DNA of 64,000 nucleotides. Source: Sedimenticola sp. (lineage in GTDB: Bacteria; Pseudomonadota; Gammaproteobacteria; Chromatiales; Chromatiaceae). The stretch is taken from the NCBI GenBank assembly GCA_026984735.1, contig JALSRN010000010.1:1-64000 (forward strand). The letters are read 5' to 3'. How positions within the stretch are numbered: the stretch's first letter is position 1; the number at the start of each line of letters is the position of its first letter. The translations under genes and the position numbers were made by a program. Under the pieces are notes generated by a model. The model made no database searches and was not told where the DNA came from. It saw only the letters and a program-made list of their open reading frames with translations. Shown here piece after piece: positions 14-14,735 of this stretch.

Positions 14-274
14 TCAAACCACCGCGGAACCGTAGCCCTTGCTCCAGGGTACCGGTCCCGATAACGCCAGGACGTCGCCGTCTTCGAGCCGATGGAAGCC
101 TTCGATGTTTCCCCCGCTCATGATGTTGCGGCCGTTGAGAAGCGCCACATGGATTTCCGGCAGAGGAATGGCCAGTCTCTTCACCGCGTCCTCCACCCGG
201 CTCTCCCGGGGCAGCTCCAACTTGCGGGGACCGTAGCGGCGCAGGCTGTTGAAGAGTCGAACTTCGATTTCCAC
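14..274 (-). CDS. MoaD/ThiS-like beta-grasp protein lacking the C-terminal Gly-Gly
   Basis: This is a small ubiquitin-like protein of about 86 residues. The pattern VRLFNSL near the N-terminus, HVALLNGR in the middle and LEDGDVLALSGPV near the end is typical of MoaD sulfur carriers. I chose the GTG at 274 because it gives a MoaD-sized protein; the upstream in-frame TTG at 361 would add an atypical extension overlapping the previous gene by 52 bases. The protein ends in KGYGSAVV rather than the Gly-Gly needed for thiocarboxylation, so it may be a non-catalytic homologue or may be processed. It is the last visible gene of the fdh-aor run, and the fold suggests a role with the AOR cofactor. Function is inferred. 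Confidence 0.7.
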   Translation of the reverse strand: MEIEVRLFNSLRRYGPRKLELPRESRVEDAVKRLAIPLPEIHVALLNGRNIMSGGNIEGFHRLEDGDVLALSGPVPWSKGYGSAVV

Positions 275-309
275 GATACGAACTTTCTCGATCGGACGGA
301 CCCGGCGAT

Positions 310-663
310 TCAACCACCGCCCCGCTGAAAATGGAGATGGAACCGCTGCAGAAACCGGCAACGTTGCGTTTCCGGCAAATCGCCCAAATCGATCTCCACC
401 CGGGTGACCGGCAGTTGCAGGGTTCCCAGGCGGCGCGGCGGCCTCGCCTGGAAATGGATGCGAACATCGCCTTCCGCAAGGTGGATGCGGAATTCATCAC
501 CGGAAGATTCGAACGGAGCTCCCTCGGCAAGCTTCCTGGCGCCGCGCAGGAACTCCTCGACCGTAAGCCCCATCTCCTTGACGAGCTTGCGACTGGCTAT
601 GATACACCTCGATTCTTCCCGGTTTCCGCTCCTTTTCGAACGAAAGGGAACGGGACCGCTCAT
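310..663 (-). CDS. conserved hypothetical protein of the AOR cluster
   Basis: I do not recognise this protein of 117 residues. It starts with ATG overlapping the stop of the upstream MoaD-like gene (ATGA), so translational coupling supports it as real. It has a basic N-terminus, a probable helical stretch around VKEMGLTVEEFLRGARKLAE (30-50), then a beta-rich part. There is no signal peptide or membrane segment. It ends in QRGGG, an odd feature beside two MoaD-like genes, but no beta-grasp pattern is obvious. The position suggests an accessory or maturation role for the tungsten/molybdenum aldehyde oxidoreductase. An internal start at Met31 is possible. Confidence 0.65.
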   Translation of the reverse strand: MSGPVPFRSKRSGNREESRCIIASRKLVKEMGLTVEEFLRGARKLAEGAPFESSGDEFRIHLAEGDVRIHFQARPPRRLGTLQLPVTRVEIDLGDLPETQRCRFLQRFHLHFQRGGG

Positions 664-914
664 CCTCCCGCCACGGCCGGCCAGACGGCCAGCACGTCGC
701 CGGCCGTCAGGGGCCGATGGCGTTGGGAGGGGGGAACGAAATAGCCGTTCACCAGCACCAGGTGGACTTGCGCCATCGGCACCCCCATCCCCTCCAGAAG
801 CTGCACCGGCGTGGTTCCCTCTTCCACCTCCAGTGTAACCGCATGCCCTTGCGCATGAGCGGGCAGATGTTCCATGAGCGAGGCGTACAGCTTCAACGTC
901 ACCGAATGCTTCAT
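660..914 (-). CDS. MoaD-like sulfur carrier (AorD-like)
   Basis: An 84-residue MoaD-family beta-grasp protein. It begins VTLKLYASL, has HLVLVNGYFV in the middle, PLTAGDVLAVWPAV near the end and a terminal Gly-Gly. The terminal Gly-Gly is what MoaD needs to be adenylated by MoeB and thiocarboxylated for dithiolene sulfur insertion into molybdopterin. The ATG at 914 overlaps the stop of the FAD subunit gene (ATGA), so the two are probably coupled. MoaD-like genes are known in AOR operons, for example aorD of the AorABC system, and are thought to serve the W-cofactor of that enzyme. No moaE is visible in the window. Confidence 0.85.
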   Translation of the reverse strand: MKHSVTLKLYASLMEHLPAHAQGHAVTLEVEEGTTPVQLLEGMGVPMAQVHLVLVNGYFVPPSQRHRPLTAGDVLAVWPAVAGG

Positions 915-2146
915 TTGCCCAGAGTGGCGAGCCAAGCTTCCATGAAGCGGGCGGGATCGGCCAGAAGACGCGATTTCCACTCGCCCAGGGAACGACGGCT
1001 TTCGATGAGCCCCCGCAGCGCCCCGATGTGGTCCGTCAAACCAAGGGTGATGGCGCCGATGAGACGGTCGCCCTGAAACTGCAGCTTCACATAGCGATAG
1101 GCGCTTTCGTCCAGCAGCGCGGCCGTGTCGCCGTCCGGGACACCCTGCCATCGGCCATAGGAGGAGGCGATCAGCCCCAGGGTGTCGAGCACGTTCATGT
1201 CCATGGCCCCTCCATAGGCGACCTCCCGGCCGACCATGTTGTGGGCCGCGACCCGGCCGGTTTCCACCGCCACCGGCTGGATGGCGTGAATCCCGTGGCC
1301 ACCGTCCCAATCGACACCTTCGCAGACGTCGCCGGCCGCGAACACTCCTTCGATCGTGCTCCTCTGGTGGGCGTCCACCAGGATCCCCTTTCCAAGTCCG
1401 ATGCCGCTGTCGGCGAGGAAATCGGTGGCCGGGCGGACGCCGGTGGCCACCACCACCAGATCGGCCTGCAGCGAAGGTCCGGGTTCGCATTCCAGGTGCA
1501 AGCCTTCACCGCTCTTCTGCACGGACGAAATGCGGGTGGAGGTCCGCACCTCGATACCCTGTTCGACGCACCACCGTTTGATGAGTCCGCCAGCCGTCTG
1601 ATCCATCATCCTCGGAACCATCCGGTCTTCCGCCTCCACCACGGTGAGGCGGACCTTGCGCGCCACCAACGCCTCCATGATGATGCAGCCGATGAATCCG
1701 GCCCCCATGAGCACCACCCGGGCGCCGGGGCGGGCCAGTTCCATGATTCCGCGCGCGTCGGCGAGGGTCCAGCAGTGGTGGACGCCGGGGAGATCGAGGC
1801 CGGGAACCGGCGGATCCACTGGAACCGAACCGCTGGCAATTAGCAGACGGTCGTAGGAGATCTCGGTTCCACCGTCCAGAGTCACCGACCGGTCGGTCGG
1901 ACGCAGCGCTGTCACCCGCGCCGCCCGGCGGGCGATACCGAGCCGGTCGAAATGATCGGGCGCGTGCCGCAGCCAGGTGCCCTCCTCTGCAATCTGGCCG
2001 GCCAGCAGATAGGGAATGGCCATGCGGGAGTAGGCGGGCTCCGGCTCGCCGCCGACGAGGACGATGTCGGCGTGCTTGTCCAGCGACCGGATCGTCTCCG
2101 CGGCCAGCACTCCCGCGGGGCCGGCTCCGACAATAACGTGCTTCAT
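911..2146 (-). CDS. aorC: FAD-dependent pyridine nucleotide-disulfide oxidoreductase, AorC-like subunit
   Basis: A protein of 411 residues with an N-terminal FAD dinucleotide fold (VIVGAGPAGVLAAETI), a second NAD(P)-binding fold (VVLMGAGFIGCIIMEAL, about residues 144-160) and the FAD motif VFAAGDVCEG (about 270). I place the start at Met 2146, where the GxGxxG fold begins; an upstream extension lacks homologous character. It lies directly after the AOR large subunit with a one-base gap. In the AorABC type of aldehyde oxidoreductase this flavin subunit connects the Fe-S chain to NAD(H), and that is the inferred role. No redox-active CxxxxC disulfide is seen, so it is a NADH oxidoreductase-like member. 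Acting alone, for example on rubredoxin, remains possible. Confidence 0.85.
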   Translation of the reverse strand: MKHVIVGAGPAGVLAAETIRSLDKHADIVLVGGEPEPAYSRMAIPYLLAGQIAEEGTWLRHAPDHFDRLGIARRAARVTALRPTDRSVTLDGGTEISYDRLLIASGSVPVDPPVPGLDLPGVHHCWTLADARGIMELARPGARVVLMGAGFIGCIIMEALVARKVRLTVVEAEDRMVPRMMDQTAGGLIKRWCVEQGIEVRTSTRISSVQKSGEGLHLECEPGPSLQADLVVVATGVRPATDFLADSGIGLGKGILVDAHQRSTIEGVFAAGDVCEGVDWDGGHGIHAIQPVAVETGRVAAHNMVGREVAYGGAMDMNVLDTLGLIASSYGRWQGVPDGDTAALLDESAYRYVKLQFQGDRLIGAITLGLTDHIGALRGLIESRRSLGEWKSRLLADPARFMEAWLATLGK

Positions 2147-2147
2147 C

Positions 2148-3995
2148 TCAAAGCTCCAACCGTTCCAGCGTTTCCGGTGTGGGAACGCCCTCGGGCGTCC
2201 AGCCCCGCAAGCTGTAGTATTCCGGAAGCATCTCGTCAAGCCGGTTCACCATCCCTTTGGCGGGGCCGGTGGGCGCCGGTTCGCTGACCAACCGCTTGGG
2301 GAGCCGGTCCTGGGAGCCGTCGATGCCCGCCGCCAGGTTGAAACGACGCTCGAGATTCCAGATGCGCTCTCCCATCTCCATGAGTTTGTCGAGACTCCAG
2401 TCGCCTTCACAGGCCGCATCGATCTGCGGCTGGATGTCCTCCAGACTCCAGGCGAAAGTGCTGAACAGGCAGAGGCCGGAGGAGTCCACCGCGGCGGTCA
2501 CATCCTGGAAAGCCTTCACCAACGCCGGCTTGCCCTCGGTGGTATGGGGGTCGGTCTTCTCCGGAATGCCCAACACTTCGGAAGAGACGGTATAGCTGCG
2601 AAGATGGCAGGCGCCCCGGTTGCTGGTGGCGTAGGTGAGACCCATTCCCTGAATGCCGCGTGGATCGTAGGCGGGGAACTCCTGTCCTTTCACCGACATG
2701 GAGAGATCGGGATGGCCATATTTCTCGCAGAGCAGCTTGGACCCCAGTCCAAGGTCCTTGCCGAAACCTTCTCCATTGGCCACCGCTTCGACCATGGTGG
2801 TGAGCGCCTCGGCCGAACCGAACCGGAGCGGCAAGCCGCCGGTCTGTTCGTCGGTGATGGCGCCGATTTCATAGAGTTCCATGGCGGCCGCGAGGGTCGC
2901 GCCGAAAGAGATGGGGTCGATGCCGTGCTCGTTGCAGATGAAATTGGCGTAGGTCATCGCATCCAGATCGTCCACGCCGCAATCGGGCCCCATGGACCAG
3001 GCGTTCTCGTATTCCAGTCCGCCGGAAGCCCCCCAATACTCCGGCTTGTTGATCACGGTGTAGTGCTGCTTGTCGATGCGGGCGATCCGCCCGCAGGCGA
3101 TGGTGCAGCCGAAGCAGGCCTGGTTGCGCACCAGGTTGGGCTTGCCTTCGCTTCCGCGGGGTTCGTGCATGGCCTCGCCGGACACCTTGTCGGCCGATTC
3201 GAACTGGACATCCCGGGCGTTCCGCGTGGGCAGCGCGCCCAGTTCGTTGATGATGTTCATCAGCACCTGGGTGCCGTAGGTGGGCAACCCCTGGCCGGTT
3301 ACCGCGTTCTCGGCGAGAATCCGCTTCTTCTCTCCCACCACCTGGAAGAAACGCTCCGGATCGGCCACCTGGGTGCCTTTGGTGCCGTGCACGGCGATGG
3401 CCTTGAGATTCTTCGACCCCATCACCGCGCCCACTCCCGAACGGCCCGCCGCCCGGTGGAGGTCGTTGACCACGCATGCGTAACGAACGAGATTCTCGCC
3501 GGCGCGGCCGATGGAGGAGATGCGCAGTTGCGGCTCCTGATGCCGCTCGTGAAGCGCTTTCTCCGTCTCCCAAGTGCCTTTCCCCCACAGCTCGCCTGCC
3601 GGCAGAAGACGGGCCTCATCGTCGATGACGAGCAGATAGACCGGCTGCTCCGCACGCCCTTCGAAGATGATCATGTCCCAGCCCGCGAACTTGAGTTCGG
3701 CACCGAAATAGCCGCCGGAATTGGAGCAGGCGATGGCTCCGGTGAGCGCGCCTTTGGTGATCACCGAATAGCGCGCACCGGTGGAGGCGGGCGTGCCGGT
3801 GAGCGGCCCGGTGGCGAAGATCAGCTTGTTTTCCGGCGAAAGGGGATCCACCCGCGGGTCCACCTCTTCCACGAAATATTTGGTCGCCAATCCCCTTTGG
3901 CCCAAATAGCGGTCGGCCCATTCCATGTTGAGCGGCTCCGCCGTGCAGGTGCCGGCGGTGAGATCGACGCGAAGAACCTTTTTTTGCCATCCCAT
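2148..3995 (-). CDS. aorB: tungsten-containing aldehyde:ferredoxin oxidoreductase, catalytic subunit
   Basis: A protein of 615 residues, full length for the AOR family, which oxidises aldehydes to acids (or the reverse) at a bis-pterin tungsten centre. Family blocks are FATGPLTGTPAS (60-71), GGYFGAELKFAGWD (94-107), GRSGVGAVMGSKNLKA (184-199) and AYDPRGIQGMGLTYATSNRG (442-461). The single [4Fe-4S] cluster fits Cys294, Cys297 and Cys301 (CFGCTIAC) plus Cys509. There is no signal peptide, so it is cytoplasmic. A strong GAGGAGG ribosome site precedes ATG 3995. It sits between a ferredoxin-type subunit and a FAD subunit, as in AorABC enzymes. The BamB type of benzoyl-CoA reductase is a related alternative, but the FAD and MoaD neighbours fit AOR better. 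Substrate is unknown. Confidence 0.93.
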   Translation of the reverse strand: MGWQKKVLRVDLTAGTCTAEPLNMEWADRYLGQRGLATKYFVEEVDPRVDPLSPENKLIFATGPLTGTPASTGARYSVITKGALTGAIACSNSGGYFGAELKFAGWDMIIFEGRAEQPVYLLVIDDEARLLPAGELWGKGTWETEKALHERHQEPQLRISSIGRAGENLVRYACVVNDLHRAAGRSGVGAVMGSKNLKAIAVHGTKGTQVADPERFFQVVGEKKRILAENAVTGQGLPTYGTQVLMNIINELGALPTRNARDVQFESADKVSGEAMHEPRGSEGKPNLVRNQACFGCTIACGRIARIDKQHYTVINKPEYWGASGGLEYENAWSMGPDCGVDDLDAMTYANFICNEHGIDPISFGATLAAAMELYEIGAITDEQTGGLPLRFGSAEALTTMVEAVANGEGFGKDLGLGSKLLCEKYGHPDLSMSVKGQEFPAYDPRGIQGMGLTYATSNRGACHLRSYTVSSEVLGIPEKTDPHTTEGKPALVKAFQDVTAAVDSSGLCLFSTFAWSLEDIQPQIDAACEGDWSLDKLMEMGERIWNLERRFNLAAGIDGSQDRLPKRLVSEPAPTGPAKGMVNRLDEMLPEYYSLRGWTPEGVPTPETLERLEL

Positions 3996-4016
3996 TTTCT
4001 TTTCCTCCTCTTGTCT

Positions 4017-4493
4017 CTATTGGGCACTGGCCAGATTGTCGGTGCGTTCCGCCCACTGGCGCATCTTCTCGTAGCCGGGCCAATCGCCGTCCACGAAGGT
4101 GATGGCCCCCGTGGGACAGGCTCTGGCGCAGGCGGGGTCGCCGCCGCACAGATCGCATTTCATCACCTTGCCGCGGGCGTGGTCGTAATTGACGGTGCCG
4201 AAAGGACAAGCGATGGTGCACACCTTGCATCCCACGCAGAGGTTCTCCACCACCTCTTTGGCCCCGGTTTCCGCATTGATCTGGATGGCCTCCACCGGGC
4301 AGGCGTTCTTGCACCAGGCGTCCGCGCATTGAGTGCAGGTGTATGGGACGAAACGCCCTTCCTGATGAAAGGCGAAGATCTTGATTCGGGAGTGCGCCGG
4401 ATTGAAATGCCCCTCATACTCCCATGAACAGGCCATCTCGCACTGCAGACAGCCGGTGCATTTTTCCGGATCCAGTGTCAAAGATCGGTACAT
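4017..4493 (-). CDS. aorA: polyferredoxin-like electron transfer subunit of the AOR (AorA-like)
   Basis: A protein of 158 residues with four [4Fe-4S] binding sets: CTGCLQCEMAC (12-22), CTQCADAWCKNACP, CVGCKVCTIACP and CDLCGGDPACARACP. It resembles the DmsB/HycB-like small subunits that carry electrons from AOR. I chose ATG 4493 (MYRSLTL) because GAGGAG lies seven bases upstream; an upstream ATG at 4553 overlapping the preceding stop would add 20 residues without family similarity. The aorB start follows 21 bases downstream. It probably wires the tungsten site to the flavin subunit and perhaps to the HdrD/DsrK-like protein encoded just upstream. Confidence 0.88.
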   Translation of the reverse strand: MYRSLTLDPEKCTGCLQCEMACSWEYEGHFNPAHSRIKIFAFHQEGRFVPYTCTQCADAWCKNACPVEAIQINAETGAKEVVENLCVGCKVCTIACPFGTVNYDHARGKVMKCDLCGGDPACARACPTGAITFVDGDWPGYEKMRQWAERTDNLASAQ

Positions 4494-4549: not shown

Positions 4550-5917
4550 TCACTCTTCTCGACCGCTTGCAACGGGTTCGCTCTTTCGGACCAAATGCTC
4601 GCCCACCAGCGCCACCAGGCTGACGATCTCGCCATTCAGGCCCATTTCATCCTTTCCTTTGATGAAGTTGAGGCGGCAGCTGCCGCACGCCATCACCACC
4701 ATCTCCGCCTCGGTGCTTTCCACTTCCTGCTTCTTGATTTCGAAGGCCGCACGCCTCAAGGGGACGGTGCGGTTGATCACGAACAGGCCCGCTCCGCCGC
4801 CGCAGCACCAGTTGAGCAGGCCGTGGTTGGGCATCTCCCGCAGGTCGGCGCCCAGTTTTCGCAACACCGCGCGCGGCTCGTCGAGCACGCCGGAGTGCCG
4901 TCCCACCTTGCAGGGATCGTGGTAGGTCGCCACTTTCCCGTTCAAAGCCTCGTCCAGCTCGAGCTCTCCTTGCTGCACGAGCAGCCCGAGAAATTCGGAA
5001 ATGGCATAGACATCGAAGGGAAGGGGCTTGCCGTAGAGATCGGCTCCCTCCCAACGCAGGGCGGGATAAGCGTGACCGCATTCAGGCACGATCACGGCCT
5101 TGGCGCCTATGGCAACGGCCTCTTCGATCACTCGCAGAGTCGCTTTCCGCTGAACCTCTCCACAGCCGGCGAGGTAGCCGAAGTTGGCCCCTTCGTAGGC
5201 GTTGCTTCGAAAAGTCCAATCGACGCCCAAGCGGTTGAACAGCTTCACCGTGGAGGCCAATTGATCGTTGAACAGCAAGAGATCGACCACGGAAGTGAGC
5301 ACCAAGTAGTCGGCCCTCTCCTTGTCCAGAGGCGCCTCGAGCCCTTGCGCGGCGAGTCGCTCCAATGCCTTTCTGAGATGCTCCGCGCCGGCGCCGAAGA
5401 CGGTGCCCCGACTGCCCTGCTCTTGCTCCACCGCCGCCAGGTCGTCCGGGATCAGTCCCGCATTGGCCAGCGCGTGCCTGGTGGTCGTCACCAGGCCGGC
5501 CACATTGATTCCCATGGGACAGATGAGGGTGCATCGGCCGCAGGTGGTGCAAGAATCGAAGACCAGCTCCTGGGCTTCCATCAGGTCGTCGATGGTGATC
5601 TCCCGTGTCACAAGACGATAGAGCCAACGAAACGGGCCGATCTCCCGGCGATAGACCCGCCTGGCCAATTCGAACTTCCGGGCGGGCGTATAGCGTGGAT
5701 CGCCGGTGCCCACGCGGAAATGACAAGCTTCCGCACAGAGCCCGCAGTGCATGCAGGATTCCAGATCGCCCGCCTGTTCCGCTTTGATGTTCTGGTGGAA
5801 GATCTCCTTGGCCAGCGCCACCCGCTTTTCGTCGGGAAGATCCACATGCTCGGCGCGCTCGCCCAGATGAGCGATCTGGCCGAGAAACTGGTGGAAGATC
5901 TCCATGTTCACGGCCAT
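4550..5917 (-). CDS. HdrD/DsrK-like (Fe-S) oxidoreductase with CCG domains
   Basis: A protein of 455 residues. The N-terminal part has two [4Fe-4S] sets, CMHCGLCAEACHF (about 55-67) and CTTCGRCTLICPMG (about 123-136). The C-terminal half has CCG-type domains: CGHAYPALRWEG, then DPCKVGR, NWCCGGGAG and ACGSCRLNF. This layout matches HdrD of heterodisulfide reductase and DsrK of the DsrMKJOP complex, where the CCG cysteines hold a special [4Fe-4S] cluster acting on thiols. It is cytoplasmic, with no signal peptide. Its start overlaps the stop of the membrane cytochrome gene (ATGA), so the two likely form a DsrMK/HdrED-like quinone-linked module. Whether the partner is FDH or AOR is not settled by sequence. 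Confidence 0.85.
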   Translation of the reverse strand: MAVNMEIFHQFLGQIAHLGERAEHVDLPDEKRVALAKEIFHQNIKAEQAGDLESCMHCGLCAEACHFRVGTGDPRYTPARKFELARRVYRREIGPFRWLYRLVTREITIDDLMEAQELVFDSCTTCGRCTLICPMGINVAGLVTTTRHALANAGLIPDDLAAVEQEQGSRGTVFGAGAEHLRKALERLAAQGLEAPLDKERADYLVLTSVVDLLLFNDQLASTVKLFNRLGVDWTFRSNAYEGANFGYLAGCGEVQRKATLRVIEEAVAIGAKAVIVPECGHAYPALRWEGADLYGKPLPFDVYAISEFLGLLVQQGELELDEALNGKVATYHDPCKVGRHSGVLDEPRAVLRKLGADLREMPNHGLLNWCCGGGAGLFVINRTVPLRRAAFEIKKQEVESTEAEMVVMACGSCRLNFIKGKDEMGLNGEIVSLVALVGEHLVRKSEPVASGREE

Positions 5918-6555
5918 CAGATGTTCACTCCCTTGCGGTGATAGACGGCGCCGGTGAATCCGCGGCTGAAGGGAAAAGTGAGCGCGTGCATCAAGCTGCT
6001 GAAGGGGAAATAGATCAGCAGCAACTCCGCCAGGAAGAGATGGAGCAGCCGCAGGCTCTCATGGGAACGCCACAGGGCGAAACAGCCGGTGAGCATCACC
6101 AGAAACACCAGCCAGGAAGCCAAGTGGTCTCCCGTGGAGGAGATAAAGCGGGTCACCGGGTCCATCAGTCGGAACAGCGCCAGAAACAGCAATCCACCCA
6201 GCGCCAGCTCCGCCGCCACCTCGAACGCCCAGTGGGGTAAAGCCGGCCAACTGAACCCGGTCACGCGCTGGGAGAGGAACTCCACATGGGGCGCGGCGAA
6301 AAAGAGCAGCGCCAGCAATCCCACATGGAAGGCGTATCCAGCCCAAAAGCGGACGCGGGAGACCTTTCTGAATTCGGGGTAGGGAAGAAAACGGCGAAAA
6401 ATGGTGGCCAGGGCGCCGCCCGGAGCATTACGCGGCTTGGCGAGACTCTTGGGACGTCCCTTGAAGAGGATGACCAACAGCCTCCAGAGCGCGACCACCA
6501 GGAAAAACCAGGCGGAAAAAAGCCACAAGGGACCGTCGATGAGTTGAGCGATCAT
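5917..6555 (-). CDS. NarI/DsrM-like membrane cytochrome b subunit
   Basis: A protein of 212 residues with about five hydrophobic helices: LWLFSAWFFLVVALWRLLVI at the N-terminus, GYAFHVGLLALLFFAAP, ELALGGLLFLALF, LASWLVFLVMLTGCFAL and FLAELLLIYFPFSSLMHAL. Histidines in AFHVGL, the HWAFE region, SHESLRLLHLFL and SLMHAL are candidate haem b ligands, as in NarI, DsrM and HdrE. It overlaps fdhC upstream and the HdrD/DsrK-like gene downstream by four bases each. The pair probably passes electrons between a cytoplasmic Fe-S protein and menaquinone or ubiquinone. It is distinct from the FDH gamma subunit, which is also present, so the run encodes two separate quinone-linked cytochromes. Confidence 0.83.
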   Translation of the reverse strand: MIAQLIDGPLWLFSAWFFLVVALWRLLVILFKGRPKSLAKPRNAPGGALATIFRRFLPYPEFRKVSRVRFWAGYAFHVGLLALLFFAAPHVEFLSQRVTGFSWPALPHWAFEVAAELALGGLLFLALFRLMDPVTRFISSTGDHLASWLVFLVMLTGCFALWRSHESLRLLHLFLAELLLIYFPFSSLMHALTFPFSRGFTGAVYHRKGVNI

Positions 6556-7658
6556 GTGCCCGCCTCCCGCTCCGGAACGCCGATCTTTCTCGCCTCGCCG
6601 AAGCGGCGTCGAACCTCTTCTTCGGAGAGCACTCTTCCTTTTTTCTCCTCTTCGTCCGCCCATTCTCGGTGATGGTGACGGGCCCAGGAGTACTCGACGT
6701 AGCCCCCTTTCATTCCGTCCATCGCGCCTTTGGTGGCGATCCCCATGTAGATGTGCGCCATGATCGTCGCCAGAAGCAGGACCGCTCCCAGGGTGTGGAT
6801 CAGATGCGCTCCCTCCATCAGCAGCCGCCCCTGCCCGAAGTTGGGGAACAGCAGCACCAAACCGGAAGCGCAGATGAGCAGCCCCACGGCGATCAGCAGC
6901 CAGAAGAGCATCTTCTCGCCCATGTTGAAAAAGCCTGCCGGTGGAGAGTCGCCGCCCAACAGCCCTCCGAGACGGATCAACCAACGGAGATCGCCGCGGG
7001 AATAGAGATTGCGTCTCCAGAAGCGTTGCAGAAAGAGGAGCAGGGAAACGAGAAACAGGGGGCCGAACAGGTTGTGCCCCTCCTTGCTGGCCGACGCCAT
7101 GGCGGAAAAGGACTCTTTGCCCACAAGCGGGATGAGCAGCGGGCGGCCGTAGAGAATGGTCAAGCCGGTGACACCGAGAAAAAGAAAGATGGCGGCCATG
7201 AACCAGTGAAGCGTGCGTTCATAGGCGACGAACCTGAGCAGTCGCTTGCCGGTTTCTCGAGGATCGGGGACGCGGCGGCCGACCGCCAGATAGAGCAACA
7301 GCAACAGGACGGCCACCGTTCCCAGAACGATGGCGGAGATGGGAATGAGCATGCGGTGGCGATAGAGCCTCCACTCCTGGCCCTTGTCGTTGATGAGGAC
7401 GGAGGTGTCCACCCCCTTCACCTGGGTGGTCACCGGGCCGATCGCTCCCTTCTCCGCCAGCGACCGCAGCTCGGGCGCGCGCCGGCGCACGAACCGCCAC
7501 AGGTCGGTGCCGGGGTCGTCCACCTTCGCGGACGGCTTGTCGTGCGATGGGGCGGCCGCAGGCAGATCGGCGACGAGGAGCGCCAGGCCGGCAAGAAGAA
7601 CCCAGCAAATCCATCCGCTCCTCGTGACCCTACGGCATGGGGGCGGCCGAAAGCTCAT
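6552..7658 (-). CDS. fdhC: formate dehydrogenase cytochrome b556 (gamma) subunit
   Basis: A protein of 368 residues. It begins with a signal-like segment (GWICWVLLAGLALLVADLPAAA, about 14-35). A periplasmic region of roughly 80 residues and a first membrane helix (ISAIVLGTVAVLLLLLYLAV) follow. The C-terminal cytochrome b core of the FdnI/FdoI family has histidines in TLHWFMAA, KEGHNLFGP, GAHLIHTLG and TIMAHIYMG. It transfers electrons from the exported FdhAB dimer to quinone. I chose ATG 7658, which overlaps the fdhB stop. The longer periplasmic N-terminus is typical of FDH gamma subunits that pair with a beta subunit lacking its own anchor. The call is firm. Confidence 0.92.
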   Translation of the reverse strand: MSFRPPPCRRVTRSGWICWVLLAGLALLVADLPAAAPSHDKPSAKVDDPGTDLWRFVRRRAPELRSLAEKGAIGPVTTQVKGVDTSVLINDKGQEWRLYRHRMLIPISAIVLGTVAVLLLLLYLAVGRRVPDPRETGKRLLRFVAYERTLHWFMAAIFLFLGVTGLTILYGRPLLIPLVGKESFSAMASASKEGHNLFGPLFLVSLLLFLQRFWRRNLYSRGDLRWLIRLGGLLGGDSPPAGFFNMGEKMLFWLLIAVGLLICASGLVLLFPNFGQGRLLMEGAHLIHTLGAVLLLATIMAHIYMGIATKGAMDGMKGGYVEYSWARHHHREWADEEEKKGRVLSEEEVRRRFGEARKIGVPEREAGT

Positions 7659-8290
7659 CGATGCCCCTTTCTCGTCTCGGTGCCTGTGCCGGAATCTGGA
7701 GCGCGGAAATTGGCCCGTTGAAGCCGGGCTCCCCACTCCAGGGAGGCGGCCGCCCGGTTCACCACCCTTTTCCGATAAATGTCCGAGATGACCCCGGCGT
7801 CGCCGGCGAGCAGGGCCTTGGTGGCGCACATCTCGGCGCACAGAGGAAGCTTCCCTTCCGCCAGTCGGTTGGAGCCGTACTTGCGATACTCCTCGGCACT
7901 GCCGTCCGGTTCCGGCCCGCCGGCGCAGAAGGTGCACTTGTCCATCTTGCCGCGGGTACCGAAGGCGCCATCCTGGGGAAACTGGGGCGCGCCGAAGGGA
8001 CAGGCATAGAAGCAGTAGCCACAGCCGATGCAGATGTCCTTGTCGTGAAGAACCACGCCGTCGTCGGTGGTATAGAAGCAATCCACCGGACAGACCGCGG
8101 CGCAAGGAGCGTCGGAACAGTGCATGCACGCCACCGACAAGGAGCGCTCCCCGTGCACGCCGTCCTTGATGGTGACCACCCGTCGGCGGTTGATTCCCCA
8201 GGGAACCTCGTTTTCGTTCTTGCAGGCGGTGACGCAGCCGTTGCATTCGATGCAACGGGCCGCGTCACAATAGAATTTCATTCTGGCCAT
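7655..8290 (-). CDS. fdhB: formate dehydrogenase iron-sulfur (beta) subunit
   Basis: A protein of 211 residues with four [4Fe-4S] motifs: CIECNGCVTAC (about 14-24), CMHCSDAPCAAVCPVDC, CIGCGYCFYACPFG, and CTFC with the later CAEMCATKALL. This is the FdnH/FdhB type that moves electrons from the FdhA molybdopterin site to the cytochrome b subunit. Unlike E. coli FdnH it has no C-terminal membrane helix, so contact with FdhC must be peripheral. There is no signal peptide, so it is presumably carried out by the Tat system together with FdhA. It starts 13 bases after fdhA and overlaps fdhC by four bases. Confidence 0.94.
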   Translation of the reverse strand: MARMKFYCDAARCIECNGCVTACKNENEVPWGINRRRVVTIKDGVHGERSLSVACMHCSDAPCAAVCPVDCFYTTDDGVVLHDKDICIGCGYCFYACPFGAPQFPQDGAFGTRGKMDKCTFCAGGPEPDGSAEEYRKYGSNRLAEGKLPLCAEMCATKALLAGDAGVISDIYRKRVVNRAAASLEWGARLQRANFRAPDSGTGTETRKGHR

Positions 8291-8303: not shown

Positions 8304-11201
8304 TCATGCCTTGCTGATCTTGCAGAGGGTGACCTTGGTCTCCTGCATCTGGGTCACCGAGTCGTAGCCATAGGTCATGGCGGTGTTGGCCGCTTCGCCG
8401 AGAATGTAAGGGTCCGCCCCCTTGGGATACTTTTCCCGCAGATCCCGGCCTTCGAAGTGGCCGCCGAAATGGAAGGGCATGAACACCACGCCGGCCGCAA
8501 CCCGCCGGGTGACCATGGCCTTCACTTTGACCCTGGCTCCTTCGGCCCCTTCCAGCCAGATATCGTCTCCATCCCGGATGCCGTGGTCGTTGGCGTCCCT
8601 GGGGTTGATCTCGGCGAACATGTGCTGCTGCAGCTCGGCCAGCCAGGGGTTGGAGCGGGTCTCGTCCCCTCCCCCTTCATACTCCACCAGTCGCCCCGAA
8701 GTGAGGATGAGCGGATACTCCTTCGAATAGTCCTTCGCCTGGATGGAGGCGTAACGGGTGGGCAGCCGGTAGAAGGACTTGCGGTCCTCGTAGGTGGCGT
8801 ATTTGTCCAGCAGATCCCGCCGGTTGGTGTAGAGGGGCTCGCGATGGATCGGCACGGGGTCGGGGAAGGTCCACACCACCGCCCTCGCCTTGGCGTTGCC
8901 GAAGGGGGCGCAGCCGTGTTTGATGGCCACCCGCTGAATGCCGCCGGAAAGATCCGTCTTCCAGTTCTTGCCCTCGGCGGCCTTTCTTTCCTCCGGGGTA
9001 AGGTCCTTCCACCAGCCCAGCTTCTTCAGCAGTTTGTCGGTGAATTCGGGATACCCGTCCTTGATCTCGCTGCCCACCGGCCAGGAGTCCTCCGCCAGCA
9101 GGCTGACGCCGTTGCGTTCCACGCCGAAGCGGGCACGGAAGCAGAGGCCGCCCTTGGCCACCGGCTTGCTGGTATCGTACAAGTTGGGCGTGCCGGGGTG
9201 CTTCATTTCGGGCGTCCCCCAGCATGGCCAGGGCAAGCCGTAGTACTCTCCGTCGCAGGGCCCCCCTTCCGCCTTCAGGGAGGTGTAGTCGAAGGTGCCC
9301 CAGTGCTTTTGCTGCAGCTTGAGGCGCTCCGGGCTCTGGCCTGTGTAGCCGATGGTCCACATCCCTTTGTTGAATTCCCGGGTGATGTCTTCGATCAGGG
9401 GCTCGTCGTTCTGCACCTGGATGTGCTTGCAGAGCTGGTCGGCGAAACCCAGCTTCTTGGCGAACTTGTACATGATGACGTGGTCGGGCAGCGACTCGAA
9501 CAGAGGCTCGATCACCTTGTCGCGCCACTGCAGCGAGCGGTTGGAAGCCGTCACCGAACCATAGGTTTCGAACTGGGTGGAAGCGGGCAGCAGATAGACG
9601 CCGTCCTTGCGGTCGTGCATCACCGCGGAGACCGTGGGATAGGGATCGACCACCACCAACAGATCCAGCTTCTCCATCGCGGTTTTCATCTCCTTGCCGC
9701 GGGTCTGGCTGTTCGGCGCATGGCCCCAGAAGATCATCGCACGAATGTTGTCCTTCTGGGCAATGGCGGATTTGTTCTCCAACACGCCGTCGATCCAGCG
9801 GGAGACGGGAATTCCCTTGGTGTGCATCGGGGGCACGCCCTTGCCGCCTTTCTTCTCATAGGCGGTATTGTCGAACCGTCCCTTGAGCCATTCGTAATCC
9901 AGGTCCCAAACCCGTGCCCAGTGTTTCCAAGCCCCTTCGGACAGGCCGTAGTAGCCCGGCAACGAATGGGAAAGCACACAGAAATCGGTGGCTCCCTGCA
10001 CATTGTCGTGGCCCCGAAATATGTTGGTTCCGCCGCCGGAAACGCCCATGTTTCCCAACACCAACTGGAAGATGCAGTAGGCCCGCGTGTTGTTGTTGCC
10101 GATGGTGTGCTGAGTGCCGCCCATGCACCAGACGAAGGTGCCGGGGCGGTTGCGAGCCATGATGCGGGCCGCCTCGAACACCTGGTGTTCGGGCACGCCG
10201 GTGACCCGTTCCACCTCCTGAGGCGTCCATTTCGCCACCTCTTTCTTCACGTCCTCCAGGCCGTACACCCGCTGCCGAATGAACTCCTGGTCTTCCCAGC
10301 CGTGTTTGAAGATGTGCCACAGCATTCCCCAGATGATGGGTACGTCGGTGCCCGGCCGGATGCGCAGGAAGAGATCGGCGTGGGCGGCCGTTCTGGTGAA
10401 GCGGGGGTCGATGACGATGAGGGGCGCGTTGTTCTCCTCTTTGGCCTTGAAGATGTGTTGCAGCGCCACCGGATGGGCCTCGGCCGGGTTGGAGCCGATG
10501 AGCAGCATCGCCTTGGAGTTGTGGATGTCGTTGTAGGAGTTGGTCATGGCGCCGTATCCCCAGGTATTGGCCACTCCCGCCACCGTGGTGGAGTGGCAGA
10601 TGCGCGCCTGGTGATCGACGTTGTTGGTGCCCCATAGAGCGGCCATCTTTCGAAACAGATAGGCCTGTTCGTTGTTGTGCTTGGCCGAGCCGAGCCAGTA
10701 GACCGAATCGGGTCCCGATTTGTCTCGGATCTCCAGCAACTTGTCGCCGATCTCGCCGATCGCCTGATCCCAGGAGATCCTCTTCCACTTGCCGTTCACC
10801 AACTTGGTGGGGTACTTGAGACGCCGCTCGCCGATGCCGTGTTCCCGTACCGAAGCGCCTTTGGCGCAATGCGCACCGCGGTTGAAAGGGTGATCGAAAG
10901 CCGGCTCCTGTCCCACCCAGGTGCCGTTCTTGACCTCGGCGATGATGCCGCAACCCACCGAACAGTGCGTGCAGATGGTGCGTATCTTTTTGACCGCGCC
11001 GTTCTGTTGATCCTTTTCTCCCGCCGCTTCCGCCTTTTTCATCAAGCCCGGCAACAGCGCGGAGCCGAGAGCCACGCTCCCGGCGCCCAATCCCGAGGTG
11101 CGGAGAAACTCCCGCCGGCTCAACGCCCTTCCCGACTGGACGAGCGGCGAAGTGGATGGCTTATCGATGGAGGGTTGGTCGGAGATCTTGCGCAATTTCA
11201 T
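8304..11201 (-). CDS. fdhA: periplasmic formate dehydrogenase catalytic (alpha) subunit, cysteine type
   Basis: A protein of 965 residues that oxidises formate to CO2. A twin-arginine signal is clear (SRREFLRTSGLGAGSVALG, Arg29-Arg30). The N-terminal [4Fe-4S] site is Cys77, Cys80, Cys84 and Cys112. The active-site motif is ARICHSTTVAG with Cys202-His203 in place of selenocysteine, and no in-frame TGA occurs here. The molybdopterin oxidoreductase domain and C-terminal dinucleotide-binding domain (TSGRLVEYEGGGDETRS and after) are complete. Because tungstate transport and a tungsten-type AOR are co-encoded, the metal may be W rather than Mo; that is inference. The TorD-like chaperone and small TAT protein upstream support exported FDH. 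Confidence 0.96.
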   Translation of the reverse strand: MKLRKISDQPSIDKPSTSPLVQSGRALSRREFLRTSGLGAGSVALGSALLPGLMKKAEAAGEKDQQNGAVKKIRTICTHCSVGCGIIAEVKNGTWVGQEPAFDHPFNRGAHCAKGASVREHGIGERRLKYPTKLVNGKWKRISWDQAIGEIGDKLLEIRDKSGPDSVYWLGSAKHNNEQAYLFRKMAALWGTNNVDHQARICHSTTVAGVANTWGYGAMTNSYNDIHNSKAMLLIGSNPAEAHPVALQHIFKAKEENNAPLIVIDPRFTRTAAHADLFLRIRPGTDVPIIWGMLWHIFKHGWEDQEFIRQRVYGLEDVKKEVAKWTPQEVERVTGVPEHQVFEAARIMARNRPGTFVWCMGGTQHTIGNNNTRAYCIFQLVLGNMGVSGGGTNIFRGHDNVQGATDFCVLSHSLPGYYGLSEGAWKHWARVWDLDYEWLKGRFDNTAYEKKGGKGVPPMHTKGIPVSRWIDGVLENKSAIAQKDNIRAMIFWGHAPNSQTRGKEMKTAMEKLDLLVVVDPYPTVSAVMHDRKDGVYLLPASTQFETYGSVTASNRSLQWRDKVIEPLFESLPDHVIMYKFAKKLGFADQLCKHIQVQNDEPLIEDITREFNKGMWTIGYTGQSPERLKLQQKHWGTFDYTSLKAEGGPCDGEYYGLPWPCWGTPEMKHPGTPNLYDTSKPVAKGGLCFRARFGVERNGVSLLAEDSWPVGSEIKDGYPEFTDKLLKKLGWWKDLTPEERKAAEGKNWKTDLSGGIQRVAIKHGCAPFGNAKARAVVWTFPDPVPIHREPLYTNRRDLLDKYATYEDRKSFYRLPTRYASIQAKDYSKEYPLILTSGRLVEYEGGGDETRSNPWLAELQQHMFAEINPRDANDHGIRDGDDIWLEGAEGARVKVKAMVTRRVAAGVVFMPFHFGGHFEGRDLREKYPKGADPYILGEAANTAMTYGYDSVTQMQETKVTLCKISKA

Positions 11202-11211
11202 GGTGTCCCCC

Positions 11212-11427
11212 TCAGCTGGCGGCGCTGTCGTAATAGGCGAGAATGTGTTTGGTCAACCGATACCCCTTCTTTTTCTCTGCGCTTTCGGTCGGCCGGCCCT
11301 CTTCGGCTTCCGCGGCGGAAGCGGGCATCGCCGAGGCCATCATCACACCGGCGCCCGTCGCCAAGGTTCCTTGCAGGAAGCGCCTGCGTTGCAGATCCGC
11401 CCGTTTCGTACTCTTTCGGTTGTTCAT
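11212..11427 (-). CDS. formate dehydrogenase region TAT-signal small protein
   Basis: A protein of 71 residues with a near-perfect twin-arginine signal (LQRRRFLQGTLATGAGVMMA, then ASAMPASAA). A short mature part containing GYRLTKHILAYYDSAA follows. This matches the small 'formate dehydrogenase region TAT target' family found next to fdhA in many proteobacteria. Its molecular role is not known; it may be an extra subunit or assembly partner in the periplasm. The start at 11427 is chosen for the compact Tat signal; upstream sequence overlaps the torD gene. It ends 10 bases before fdhA. Confidence 0.85.
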   Translation of the reverse strand: MNNRKSTKRADLQRRRFLQGTLATGAGVMMASAMPASAAEAEEGRPTESAEKKKGYRLTKHILAYYDSAAS

Positions 11428-11452: not shown

Positions 11453-12094
11453 TCATTGCATGTTGAAAGCGGCTTTTTCGAACTGCATGAAGAGGACTCC
11501 AAGCCGCCCCACGGATTGATAGAAGACCGCCGATTCCGCACTCGCCAGGTCTTCGAAAAAATCTTCCATCCAGTTGGCGATGTGACGTTCGAAGAACCGC
11601 GCCTGGACCTCCAGCGGCTGGCCGTCGCGGATCAGCATCGCCATCACTTCGCAGAGGGCCGCGGCGTGATCCTCCGGCTCGTGAACCTCGTCGGATCGAC
11701 AGTATCCGAGCGACCGCAGATCCGACCGAAGGTCGCTCAACGGCCGTTCCATCAGGAAGCCGGTCTGATACCAGGAGGCGTAGGGGAGAAGTTCGCCACG
11801 CCCCAAACCGATGAAGAGCTCGTGGTACTCATCGTCGACCTCGTCCACTTTGGTTCTGCCCGCCGTCAGACAGAGCATGGCGAACGCGGCATCGAGCTCG
11901 TTTTCCCGGGAGGGGGCCTGCGCGCTCTCGGCAAGCCGCCGAAGCGCACCCGCAGCCGGGGGCGCGGCCAACAGTCCCGCCAACAAACCCCAACTGGCTG
12001 CTCTCCAGGCCTCTTCCACCTCCAGTGGAGGAGAGAGATCCCCCGCTCGGAAAGAGACTCGTTCGGCCGCCTGGGCGGAATCCCGGTTCATCAT
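11453..12094 (-). CDS. TorD/DmsD-family molybdoenzyme chaperone
   Basis: A protein of 213 residues, all-helical in character. It carries the TorD-family core DEYHELFIGLGRGELLPYAS (about 107-126), a WYQTGFLMERPLSDLR segment and the C-terminal EPEDHAAALCEVMAML and FFERHIANWMEDFFEDL segments. TorD-family proteins bind the Tat signal and assist cofactor insertion of their partner enzyme; the partner here is almost surely FdhA, two genes downstream. A GGAG ribosome site lies upstream of the tandem ATG at 12094/12091. A sigma54-type promoter motif lies about 30 bases upstream, so fdhA may be expressed independently of the DUF3305-led part. Confidence 0.9.
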   Translation of the reverse strand: MMNRDSAQAAERVSFRAGDLSPPLEVEEAWRAASWGLLAGLLAAPPAAGALRRLAESAQAPSRENELDAAFAMLCLTAGRTKVDEVDDEYHELFIGLGRGELLPYASWYQTGFLMERPLSDLRSDLRSLGYCRSDEVHEPEDHAAALCEVMAMLIRDGQPLEVQARFFERHIANWMEDFFEDLASAESAVFYQSVGRLGVLFMQFEKAAFNMQ

Positions 12095-12124: not shown

Positions 12125-12140
12125 TGCAATCGAAGGGCCA
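12125..12140 (-). promoter_or_regulatory. candidate sigma54 promoter for torD-fdh
   Basis: Read on the minus strand the sequence is TGGCCCTTCGATTGCA. It has the strict GG-N10-GC spacing and matches the -24/-12 consensus TGGCAC-N5-TTGCA at 5 of 6 positions of the -24 box and at all of TTGCA. The expected start of transcription is near 12114, giving a leader of about 20 bases that still holds the AGGAG site of torD. It lies in the 100-base gap after the polyferredoxin gene. Confidence 0.65.
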
Positions 12141-12194: not shown

Positions 12195-13757
12195 TCATGA
12201 GTCCGTGCGAATGCCGCTCACCCGTTCCAGCATCGCCTCGTCCTGGAGCACGTCGGCGATTCGACACGACTCGCACAACTTCAGGCGTTCGAGGGCCCGC
12301 TCGTCCTGAAACATCCAGTGCCCCTGCAGGGCGTGCACCATTCGAGTAACCACCGCCCGCGAAGCGAACGGCTCTCCGCAACGGATGCAGTGAAAGGGCT
12401 CTTCGGCGTGAAGCGTTCGTGGTTTGGCGCGTTTTTCGCGATCGAAGAGCAGTCTGGGCGTGATGGCGATGGCGTTCTCCGGGCATGTGCGTGTGCACAT
12501 GCCGCACTGCAGGCAGTTGGCCTCGACGAAACGGATCTCAAGGGTTTCCGATGCTCCCTGCAACGCCCGCCCAGGGCAGGCGCCCACGCACGCCTGGCAG
12601 AAGGTGCAGCGGCGTGGGTCGATGGAAGCGCTTCCAAAGGGTGCCCCGGCTTCCAGCATCGCCATGGGCCTCGGCCTGTCCGCCTCACGATGCAAATGGT
12701 CCAGGGCCATGAAGAAGAGCTGCCGTTTCAGCCCTTGAGGGGCGTGGCCGGCCGGTGCGATCTTCGGCATGGCGGGGCCCTCGACAGGGAGCCTCCCCCA
12801 GTCGACGATCTGCACCGCCTCGGGCGGGTACCCCAGCGCGTCCAGAATGGTTCTGCAGGTGGAAACCTCCCGTTGCAAGGAAGTGGCCACCGACGGGGGA
12901 AGGTCGTCCCGCAGGAGCACCACGCGCCCCGCGCCGTAGGCGAGGGCTCCCAGCCAAAACTCCATTCCCCGGCTCGCCAGCTCCTCCACGGGAAAAAAGA
13001 GGTGGCCTGGGAGAGAAGGGAGCGGAACCTTCTCCTGGTGAATCACCAGGGTCGACTCGCCTCCGCCCTCTCGGCGGTAGGTTTCCAACAGGATCTTCAC
13101 CTGCTTGAGCGCGTCTTCGACGGTGGGCCACTGGTACTGGAGCGCCCCGGAGGGGCAGACGGTGGCGCAGGCGCCGCCCCCTTGGCAGAGATCGTGATCC
13201 ACCTCGACCGACTCGGCCCCGGAAAGGATGGCGTCGGCGGGACAGGCGTCCAGACAACGGGTGCAGGCCTGGCGGCCGTTTCGCCGATGGGCGCAGAGAT
13301 CGGGATCCAATTGGAGGTAGCGGGGCTTTTCGAAGGTGCCCACCAAGGAACGCAGTCGTTTCTCCGCCTCGACGACCGCCTCTTCATCGGCCGGACACCA
13401 CAGATAGCCCGGAGGCGGCACCGGCGCCTCGATGAGAGGCGTGGCGGAAAGATCGAGCACCAAGTCGGCGCGTGACTGCCGGTAGTCTGAAGAATCTCTT
13501 TTTCCTGAATGAATCGTGAAATTGCCGATGTGTCCGGTGATGCGGAGCGGATCCGCCCCCGCCCCGTCCGGCGTCTCCTTCCGGCGGATCACCATCGGCC
13601 GAAGCGGCTTTCGAAAGGAGGCGGTCAACCTCTCGGCTTCGGGGCCTCCGATCACCGCCACCCGCCCCTCGGAGAGATAGCGGTCCACCACCACCGGTCG
13701 TGGCTGGATGCGTTCCATGGCCCGCTGCGCCAGCCGCCGGGCCCCCAACTCCGCCAT
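12195..13757 (-). CDS. multi-cluster 4Fe-4S protein of the formate dehydrogenase accessory set
   Basis: A protein of 520 residues with at least four [4Fe-4S] sets in two pairs: CTRCLDACPADA and CQGGGACATVCPSG in the first half, CTFCQACVGACPGRA and CLQCGMCTRTCPENA in the second. A rubredoxin-like CIRCGEPF and a CESCR near the C-terminus could form another metal site. Such proteins sit beside DUF3305, DUF3306 and torD in many FDH loci and are thought to move electrons or assist assembly in the cytoplasm; no signal or membrane segment is seen. I chose ATG 13757 (MAELGARR); the open frame upstream is arginine-rich and overlaps the DUF3306 gene. Confidence 0.85.
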   Translation of the reverse strand: MAELGARRLAQRAMERIQPRPVVVDRYLSEGRVAVIGGPEAERLTASFRKPLRPMVIRRKETPDGAGADPLRITGHIGNFTIHSGKRDSSDYRQSRADLVLDLSATPLIEAPVPPPGYLWCPADEEAVVEAEKRLRSLVGTFEKPRYLQLDPDLCAHRRNGRQACTRCLDACPADAILSGAESVEVDHDLCQGGGACATVCPSGALQYQWPTVEDALKQVKILLETYRREGGGESTLVIHQEKVPLPSLPGHLFFPVEELASRGMEFWLGALAYGAGRVVLLRDDLPPSVATSLQREVSTCRTILDALGYPPEAVQIVDWGRLPVEGPAMPKIAPAGHAPQGLKRQLFFMALDHLHREADRPRPMAMLEAGAPFGSASIDPRRCTFCQACVGACPGRALQGASETLEIRFVEANCLQCGMCTRTCPENAIAITPRLLFDREKRAKPRTLHAEEPFHCIRCGEPFASRAVVTRMVHALQGHWMFQDERALERLKLCESCRIADVLQDEAMLERVSGIRTDS

Positions 13758-13789
13758 TTTTTCATGCTCCGCGCCGGGTTCGTCGGATC

Positions 13790-14239
13790 TCAACCTTCTT
13801 CCTCCTCTTCCATTCGCTTCGTCTCCCCGGTGTGCTCCGGGGGGCGGGCGTCGGCTTCCGCCATCTTCGGCACGCCGCCGGTCTCGGGCTCTTCCATCCA
13901 ACCGTCGAGGTGTTCTCGAATCTGCTCCACCAACGCCTCTCCAGCCTCTGCAAAATCGTCATCGTAGTCGTCCAGCCCGTCCCGCACGTTGAAGAGAGCG
14001 CTGTGAAACAGCTTGCGAAGGGCGAGGCGCCGCAACGACTCCTCCACCTCTGGCGCGAGAAAAAGGCTGTAGTCGGACTCTTCGTCGAGCGATTCGAGAG
14101 GAGGCGGTCGCTTTTGCGCGGTTGGCGCTGCCGGCGGAGAGCGGTCCGGTACTTGTTCCTCTTTCACGGCCGCCGACGCTTCCAGTTTGCGGCGCGACCA
14201 ACGACGCAAAAAGTCCTGTTCTTCCGGTTCATTTGCCAT
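13790..14239 (-). CDS. DUF3306 family protein
   Basis: A protein of 149 residues. The signature FLRRWSRRKLEA lies at the N-terminus (about 9-20). A variable acidic/proline linker follows, then a conserved core (FLAPEVEESLRRLALRKLFH and FNVRDGLDDYDDDF) and a very acidic tail ending in EEEEEG. DUF3306 proteins occur almost only in formate dehydrogenase accessory clusters; the function is unknown. It overlaps the DUF3305 gene by 11 bases. The ATG at 14239 fits the family start (MANEPEEQDFLRRW). Probably cytoplasmic. Confidence 0.85.
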   Translation of the reverse strand: MANEPEEQDFLRRWSRRKLEASAAVKEEQVPDRSPPAAPTAQKRPPPLESLDEESDYSLFLAPEVEESLRRLALRKLFHSALFNVRDGLDDYDDDFAEAGEALVEQIREHLDGWMEEPETGGVPKMAEADARPPEHTGETKRMEEEEEG

Positions 14240-14735
14240 GGGCACCGTTTCCTCGATCCAGTTTGCGTTTCCGTTTAGGCCGGGGCACGTAATGAGCCAA
14301 CACGTAGGCCTCGCACCAGCGATAGATCTCACCGGGAATCGGAACGGCGTAGACCAGATCGTCCGCCTCCAGATAGGCGTGAGCCTCGTCGAAGCTGAGG
14401 CCGATGAGAAAAGGCGATGGACGCCCCCCTCGCTCCGTCCGGGCCACCACGTAGCATCTGGGAGTCGCCGTCATCAGGTTGTGGTAGTAGCTTTCGCATT
14501 CGTCCCGATGGAGCGACAGGACGAGCCCGTGTTGGAGATAACGGCTCACCCCGCCCTCTTCATGAATCTTGACGAGCTCTCCGGCATCCCTCTCCCTCGC
14601 CGTCGAGGCGATTCCCACCACTTCCCACTGCTCCTCTTCCCACGGATTGGAGGCGGGACGCCTTTCCAGCATCACCGAAACCGGCATCTCCGAAGGGAGC
14701 GTTCTCCCAATCTCTTCCGGCGTGATTTCCGGCAT
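14229..14735 (-). CDS. DUF3305 family protein
   Basis: A protein of 168 residues that opens the fdh-aor run. It has family features such as MPVSVMLERRPASNPWEEEQ (about 17-36), WEVVGI, the YLQHGLVLSLHRDECESYYH segment and a C-terminal PIPGEIYRWCEAYVLAHYVP followed by a basic tail. DUF3305 is found with DUF3306 in FDH loci; its role is unknown. I chose ATG 14735, which has a GGGGAG site about 12 bases upstream and lies 39 bases after the predicted sigma54 transcription start. The longer upstream frame would read through that promoter. Confidence 0.85.
   Translation of the reverse strand: MPEITPEEIGRTLPSEMPVSVMLERRPASNPWEEEQWEVVGIASTARERDAGELVKIHEEGGVSRYLQHGLVLSLHRDECESYYHNLMTATPRCYVVARTERGGRPSPFLIGLSFDEAHAYLEADDLVYAVPIPGEIYRWCEAYVLAHYVPRPKRKRKLDRGNGAHGK

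Follow-up and report, generated by a model that had tools for sequence, protein, structure and literature searches.

The window analysed here is a stretch of 64,000 nucleotides from a Sedimenticola species (contig JALSRN010000010.1, positions 1 to 64,000, from a genome assembly of 2.44 Mb); judged by AorB, its nearest named relatives are also Sedimenticola. On the minus strand, from position 14735 to position 14, translation of the window gives 16 consecutive, tightly packed genes that encode a formate dehydrogenase (FDH), a pair of proteins resembling Isp1 and Isp2 of [NiFe] hydrogenases, and an aldehyde oxidoreductase (AOR) of the AorABC type. The first base of the window is the start of the contig, immediately past the last gene of the run. 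An earlier sequence-only reading of this DNA had described the same run, with the Isp1/Isp2-like pair labelled a DsrMK-like module and placed exactly between the two enzymes; translation and family matches confirm the gene content, whilst comparison with related genomes assigns the pair to the FDH. The genes of the run, from first to last, are these.

14229..14735, minus strand: DUF3305 protein, first gene of the run (PF11749, E 5e-36)
13790..14239, minus strand: DUF3306 protein (PF11748, E 3e-20)
12195..13757, minus strand: polyferredoxin of the FDH operon, 520 aa (Fer4 families; same place in the FDH operons of relatives)
11453..12094, minus strand: TorD/NarJ-type chaperone (PF02613, E 2e-29)
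11212..11427, minus strand: FdhX, small protein of the twin-arginine translocation (Tat) type (TIGR02811, 49.5 bits, above the cut-off of 48.45)
8304..11201, minus strand: FdhA, Tat-exported FDH catalytic subunit, Cys type (family and PDB match, Tat motif)
7655..8290, minus strand: FdhB, FDH3-type Fe-S subunit (NF038355 FDH3_beta, 342.9 bits against a cut-off of 240)
6552..7658, minus strand: FdhC, cytochrome b561-type subunit (TIGR01583, 155.4 bits, above the cut-off of 115.85)
5917..6555, minus strand: Isp1-like (DsrM/TmcC/NarI-type) membrane protein (profile matches; four conserved His)
4550..5917, minus strand: Isp2-like (DsrK/HdrD-type) protein (two 4Fe-4S motifs and one CCG-type site)
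4017..4493, minus strand: AorA, ferredoxin subunit with 16 Cys (best PDB match 8c0z_C, E 1e-71)
2148..3995, minus strand: AorB, AOR catalytic subunit (best PDB match 8c0z_A, E 0; PF01314 and PF02730, AFOR_C and AFOR_N)
911..2146, minus strand: AorC, FAD subunit, an FAD oxidoreductase (best PDB match 8c0z_E, E 4e-130)
660..914, minus strand: AorD, MoaD-like, with GG at its end (PF14451, PF02597)
310..663, minus strand: unnamed AOR-operon protein with GGG at its end (homolog alignment, model)
14..274, minus strand: AorE-like small protein, last gene of the run (label from position and look; homologs at AorB loci)

Junctions within the run extend from an 11-base overlap to a 100-base gap between the polyferredoxin and TorD-like genes, in line with the spacing first described, and fdhC starts at 7658, sharing 4 bases with fdhB. 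The gap that separates isp2 from aorA measures 56 bases in the window and 60 in a sister genome, and a consensus scan of it found no promoter-like or terminator-like site of the kind that the earlier reading had named as grounds for separating fdh from aor. The AOR genes of the window are thus probably read from upstream, and co-transcription of the 16 genes is plausible on this layout. The gene order is identical in two separate assemblies, that of the window and that of the sister genome, a second species of the same genus (G008), in which the run is on a 114-kb contig (counted both as L016 and as L096) and stops at the same last gene, next to a convergent hydrogenase operon. That operon, hynS-isp1-isp2-hynL, follows aorE (L156, 4437-9785), and in G008 an FDH-type and a hydrogenase-type Isp pair lie less than 10 kb apart.

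The FDH resembles the membrane-bound FDH3 type in the score of FdhB and in the presence of the DUF3305, DUF3306, chaperone and FdhX genes, and differs from it in the Isp1/Isp2-type pair that follows fdhC. FdhA matches PDB chain 9vap_A over residues 19-965 (1532 bits), and a simple motif and hydropathy scan found the twin-arginine string SRREFL, which agrees with the Tat export proposed for this enzyme. The string ARICHSTTVAG of FdhA aligns with ARLCHAPTVAG of 7qv7 FdhF, the same string being present in 9vap_A, and we take its Cys-His to be the active site. The 520-aa polyferredoxin (12195-13757) stays with the FDH in relatives. An excerpt of an earlier study (PMC4464133) describes fdh operons with a NarJ-family chaperone to which DUF3305, DUF3306 and a Tat protein are linked.

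The two proteins that follow FdhC share domains with DsrMK, TmcBC and HmcEF, and match the corresponding NCBIfam models below cut-off. The shortfall is large in every case (212.9 against 400 bits for DsrK, 24.8 against 300 for DsrM, 92.1 against 240 for TmcC, 63.1 against 275 for HmcE, 145.9 against 735 for TmcB and 152.9 against 750 for HmcF), and with all curated cut-offs missed we rejected these identities; unlike DsrMK, the pair is not adjoined by DsrJOP. A second DsrMK-like pair, of approximately 30% identity, is present on contig C63 of the window genome. The Isp1/Isp2 proteins of group 1e/1g [NiFe] hydrogenases share with the window pair the two-gene order, the conserved histidines and the cluster cysteines: all 34 Isp1 sequences compared keep the four histidines, candidate heme ligands, and all 33 Isp2 sequences keep the eight ferredoxin-type and five CCG-type cysteines, hydrogenase-linked sequences included in both sets. 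The difference lies in the partners, which here are fdhABC, with no hydrogenase structural genes beside the pair. Outside FDH operons, 16 of the 17 pairs examined closely lie with the [NiFe] hydrogenase genes hynS and hynL, in an arrangement, hynS-isp1-isp2-hynL, whose name is given for Thiocapsa in an excerpt of PMC3325256. The exception is an orphan pair, L153, with no hydrogenase genes nearby, which is contained in both conservation sets. This DsrM/DsrK-like pair (38% and 46%; 3668-5700, genome G016) has neither FDH nor hydrogenase genes around it, its neighbours being a methyltransferase (lipid), a glycosyltransferase and alpha-amylase or other sugar-metabolism genes. The portion of PMC11018855 used here states that isp genes had earlier been regarded as confined to two subgroups of hydrogenases, to which it adds a third hydrogenase clade (2024).

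That the DsrM/DsrK-like pair belongs to the FDH follows from its distribution. An order-level search covered 210 genomes, all of those listed being labelled as the same genus or the same family, and gave a match to FdhB in 56 and to AorB in 58. Among the best 48 DsrM matches (38% identity or more) of a longer list, 43 of the 56 FdhB genomes have an FDH-type DsrM no more than 4 kb from FdhB on the same strand, whilst within 6 kb of AorB, again on the same strand, it is found in only two of the 58 AorB genomes (G000 and G008), counting FDH-type DsrM only. In five of the remaining 13 FdhB genomes the gene looks truly absent (G105, G180, G212, G214 and G216), and the other eight are contig ends or ambiguous. 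In G017, G021, G025, G020 and further genomes the FDH operon, complete or almost so, contains the pair and is not followed by AOR. The 80 best AorB loci of named genomes, of which 56 hold at least 5 kb upstream of aorB and 49 at least 8 kb downstream, tell the same story from the other side: L016, from G008, is the sole locus with an FDH and a DsrMK-like pair in front, and the other 79 have no FDH-DsrMK block as far as their contigs extend. A role of the pair as a bridge between the enzymes is not supported by these counts.

Within the pair, the two proteins appear to have had different histories. The 17 FDH-linked Isp1 sequences fall into a single clade of their tree (support 100/99). In the Isp2 tree, members from FDH operons and from hydrogenase operons interleave, linkage to FDH needs three changes, at least two of them forced by well-supported branches, and a single FDH-linked clade is rejected (approximately unbiased test, p 1.6e-5); L153 was left out of both trees. 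Taken together, a single Isp1 clade and a divided Isp2 suggest that an Isp1 specific to the FDH is partnered by Isp2 proteins that have passed between operons for FDH and operons for hydrogenase. The Isp2 of the window shares no more than about 35-37% identity with many FDH-linked Isp2 proteins and is closer to several hydrogenase-linked ones; identities of 54-57% are found in the FDH operons of G196, G207, G208, G209, G210, G215 and G108, none of which shows an AOR downstream, although G108 has aor upstream. Replacement of Isp2 upon the arrival of AOR was considered and dropped, as these seven FDH operons have a similar Isp2 with no AOR downstream.

For each of the three AOR subunits the best PDB match is the corresponding chain of AorABC from Aromatoleum aromaticum EbN1 (8c0z), and the order A-B-C followed by MoaD-like genes is also that of Aromatoleum in the part of PMC6365974 drawn on here. 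The window differs in that aor lies downstream of an FDH-Isp operon, and in the GGG-ending small protein placed between two other small genes. As to the C-terminal AorA segment that mediates filaments, the alignment of AorA with 8c0z_C extends to residue 157 of 158. The motif and hydropathy scan found neither a twin-arginine string nor a transmembrane stretch in AorA or AorB, and this, with the matches of AorC and AorD, upholds the prediction of a cytoplasmic AOR with ferredoxin, FAD and MoaD partners. In the Aromatoleum enzyme AorA is an electron-conducting chain (PMC10413684, in part), and a 2026 classification, in the section at hand, lists that enzyme as the only characterised three-subunit member (PMC13328260).

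The last two small proteins of the run (310..663 and 14..274) gave no Pfam or NCBIfam family match. For the former, 31 sequences were collected, that of the window among them and a few of them obtained twice; every one has GG immediately ahead of its stop codon, and the last two glycines are invariant in the 25 that were aligned. Its model (predicted local distance difference test, pLDDT, 79) has as top Foldseek match 1v8c, a MoaD-related Thermus protein, at a weak E of 1.9e-3; VIA-align against residues 87-165 of 1v8c gives Z 8.6, with KA1 and other domains scoring equal or higher. The protein may be a maturation domain for the tungsten cofactor that has become a separate gene product.

AOR and FDH genes are also joined in two genomes of another genus, G104 and G108, here with aor first, followed by the genes from DUF3305 through fdh. 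In G108 isp1-isp2 come after fdh, which places aor at the opposite end from the pair; the G104 contig ends at about fdhC. Quick trees (AorB, 30 of 95 collected sequences; FdhA, 24 of 26) reject all four fused genomes as one clade, with p 1e-4 for FdhA and p 3e-87 for AorB. The two fusions are thus independent: AorABC is an operon of its own, found widely, and was added to the FDH operon on two occasions, once at each end.

The coordinates of the sequence-only reading stop before a set of cofactor, regulator and tupABC genes that suggests a shared need for tungstate. These genes, with two sigma-54-type sites found by scanning with the -24/-12 consensus of sigma-54, are listed below.

15181..16188, plus strand: MoaA, divergent from the run (PF06463)
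16189..17034, plus strand: FdhD (PF02634)
17034..17981, plus strand: regulator with helix-turn-helix (HTH) and periplasmic-binding-protein (PBP)-like domains (PF12728, PF12727)
17936..20065, minus strand: sensor histidine kinase with sCache domain (domain match)
20073..21527, minus strand: sigma-54-activating response regulator (PF00158, PF00072)
21752..22621, plus strand: TupA-like tungstate-binding protein, start uncertain (NF041772, E 3e-67, below cut-off)
22642..23319, plus strand: TupB-like permease, start approximate (NF041773, E 5e-53, below cut-off)
23316..24038, plus strand: TupC-like ATPase (ABC ATPase matches; name from position)
24035..24634, plus strand: MobA, start approximate (PF12804)
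24631..25203, plus strand: MobB (PF03205)
25160..26443, plus strand: MoeA (PF03453, PF00994, PF03454)
12125..12140, minus strand: sigma-54-type -24/-12 site, 10 of 11 consensus positions, 46 nt upstream of torD (consensus scan)
21730..21745, plus strand: sigma-54-type site at the start of tupA, 11 of 11 consensus positions (consensus scan)

The HTH-PBP regulator occurs in 49 of the 56 FdhB genomes (52 of 54 matches were used, leaving aside G197 at 39% and G219 at 33%). At two loci, L104 (G023) and L034, the AOR operon is directly divergent from moaA-fdhD-HTH-PBP, a position taken by the FDH operon in several relatives. At a betaproteobacterial AOR locus, L042, an FdhC-like gene (1-515, 38%) lies upstream of divergent moaA, possibly marking a further FDH-AOR neighbourhood outside the family. 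Standalone aor operons are divergent from tup genes at L018, L021, L022, L097 (G017), L209 (G106) and L211 (G068).

The sigma-54-type sites are consensus matches, not mapped transcription starts, and were counted with loci of short upstream sequence, duplicate upstream stretches and AorA matches below 55% identity omitted. Upstream of torD (260 nt, window included), 11 of 22 regions have a site scoring at least 9, whereas random windows drawn from these loci have one in 4.1% of cases, and eight of the 11 sites fall within 134 nt of torD. Upstream of aorA there is no such excess (sites in 5 of 87 regions and in 4.4% of random windows, or in 3 of 85 regions when the two aor-fdh fusions are excluded), and the only two perfect sites there are those of these two fusions; as background, a perfect site turned up in none of 6000 random windows (350 nt) drawn from AOR loci and in 0.08% of random windows (260 nt) drawn from FDH loci. 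Sites at tupA scoring at least 10 occur at 4 of 23 TupA loci (L017 and L209, one and the same contig, being counted twice), and these are exactly the four at which the sensor kinase was found.

FDH and AOR occur together far more often than expected, in 44 of the 210 genomes against 15.5 (odds ratio 36.7), with FDH lacking AOR in 12 genomes and AOR lacking FDH in 14. The excess persists when the largest genus is removed (24 against 6.9; this genus was taken as 23 genomes, one of them, G181, assigned by handle number only) and when genera are counted in place of genomes (11 against 3.4, of 61). NapA, which served to control for common ancestry and the quality of the genomes, also goes with both enzymes, but its association with them is weaker than theirs with each other (odds ratios 8.9 for AOR and 4.8 for FDH). 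TupA is present in 72 of the 210 genomes, namely in 67 of the 70 with FDH or AOR and in five with neither. Among these 72 genomes FDH and AOR are independent (42 with both against 41.3 expected, p 0.43). A requirement for tungstate uptake common to the two enzymes can explain their strong co-occurrence. TupABC is treated as a sign of tungsten use in the available part of PMC13328260.

We consider it quite probable that some 26 kb of the window form one tungsten regulon with two separate enzymes, of which the FDH carries a hydrogenase-type electron outlet. The tupABC-mobAB-moeA genes and the sigma-54 two-component system within the window, together with the co-occurrence of TupA, support this reading. 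The first enzyme would be a periplasmic FDH3-type FDH, probably tungsten-dependent, with FdhC as its quinone-reducing cytochrome b. Isp1 would be a membrane cytochrome b with four histidines and Isp2 an HdrD-like protein on the cytoplasmic side, and by analogy with Isp-type hydrogenases, for which an excerpt of PMC11018855 has electrons pass from Isp1 to quinone and, on the cytoplasmic side, from Isp2 to a low-potential acceptor, this module could form a second outlet that takes formate electrons across the membrane to a cytoplasmic acceptor. Electrons from formate may thus leave the FDH by two routes, to quinone through FdhC and to the cytoplasm through Isp1/Isp2. The second enzyme would be a cytoplasmic, NAD(H)-coupled AorABC of the Aromatoleum kind, and the fusion of the operons would have been driven by a common need for tungstate uptake, for maturation of tungstopterin and for the same sigma-54-dependent control.

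Several observations count against the tungsten regulon. FdhA scores below the general Fdh-alpha equivalog TIGR01591 (474.5 bits against a cut-off of 666.25), and TupA and TupB also match below their curated cut-offs. The perfect site at tupA lies 6 nt before the first ATG, so that the true start of tupA would have to be further in, and three of the 11 torD sites are more than 200 nt upstream. Long-branch warnings attach to the Isp2 tree. The independence of FDH and AOR within the 72 TupA genomes is not a clean test, as conditioning on a transporter that is kept for either enzyme lowers the association and could mask a real tie between them. Finally, two independent fusions could also mean that the tie is metabolic.

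If the tie were metabolic, the fusion would serve a pathway and not only a metal: AOR might oxidise aldehydes, possibly formaldehyde to formate, with FDH disposing of the formate, or reducing power from formate might pass via quinone and reverse transport to NADH and so to acid reduction. Such coupling would fit the strength of the co-occurrence, the two independent fusions in opposite orders and the perfect sigma-54-type site ahead of the joint run in the aor-fdh fusions. However, the enzymes are independent among TupA genomes, with the qualification just given, 12 genomes hold FDH alone and 14 hold AOR alone, and in G017, an assembly of two contigs, FDH and AOR lie about 0.56 Mb apart, with aor facing the tup genes. 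Co-occurrence as a sign of metabolic coupling was demoted to a rival explanation by the TupA search, and we now think coupling of this kind rather unlikely. Less likely still is a single supercomplex in which formate electrons run from FdhABC through Isp1 and Isp2 into the ferredoxin chain of AorA for formate-driven acid reduction. The gene order of the window invites it, as do the cytoplasmic-side placing of Isp2 in the hydrogenase model (PMC11018855, in excerpt) and the conduction of electrons by AorA (PMC10413684, in part), but FDH-type DsrM is near FDH in 43 of 56 FDH genomes and near AOR in 2 of 58 AOR genomes, the other type of fusion has aor far from isp1/isp2, and AorC is retained. Nothing that we found favours a membrane-spanning FDH-Isp-AOR conduit in the two species with the fdh-aor fusion, which we regard as very improbable; if it did exist, periplasmic formate oxidation would directly drive the reduction of carboxylic acids to aldehydes in the cytoplasm, or the reverse. 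The assembly is a draft and its contig starts at the end of the run, as would suit a chance neighbourhood or an assembly artefact; against this, the same order stands in a second assembly on a 114-kb contig and the inverse fusion in two more genomes, so that we give this explanation hardly any credence.

Two elements are new. One is an FDH equipped with a hydrogenase-type Isp module, and the other is that two tungsten enzymes have been fused more than once, seemingly under a single control linked to sigma-54 and to tungstate. An Isp1/Isp2-type outlet is a standing part of the FDH operon across a family of sulfur bacteria, and, with two donors, FDH and hydrogenase, the cytoplasmic acceptor of Isp2 would become testable by comparison. 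For the AOR, a tempting metabolic link read from the operon can be explained by a shared metal supply.

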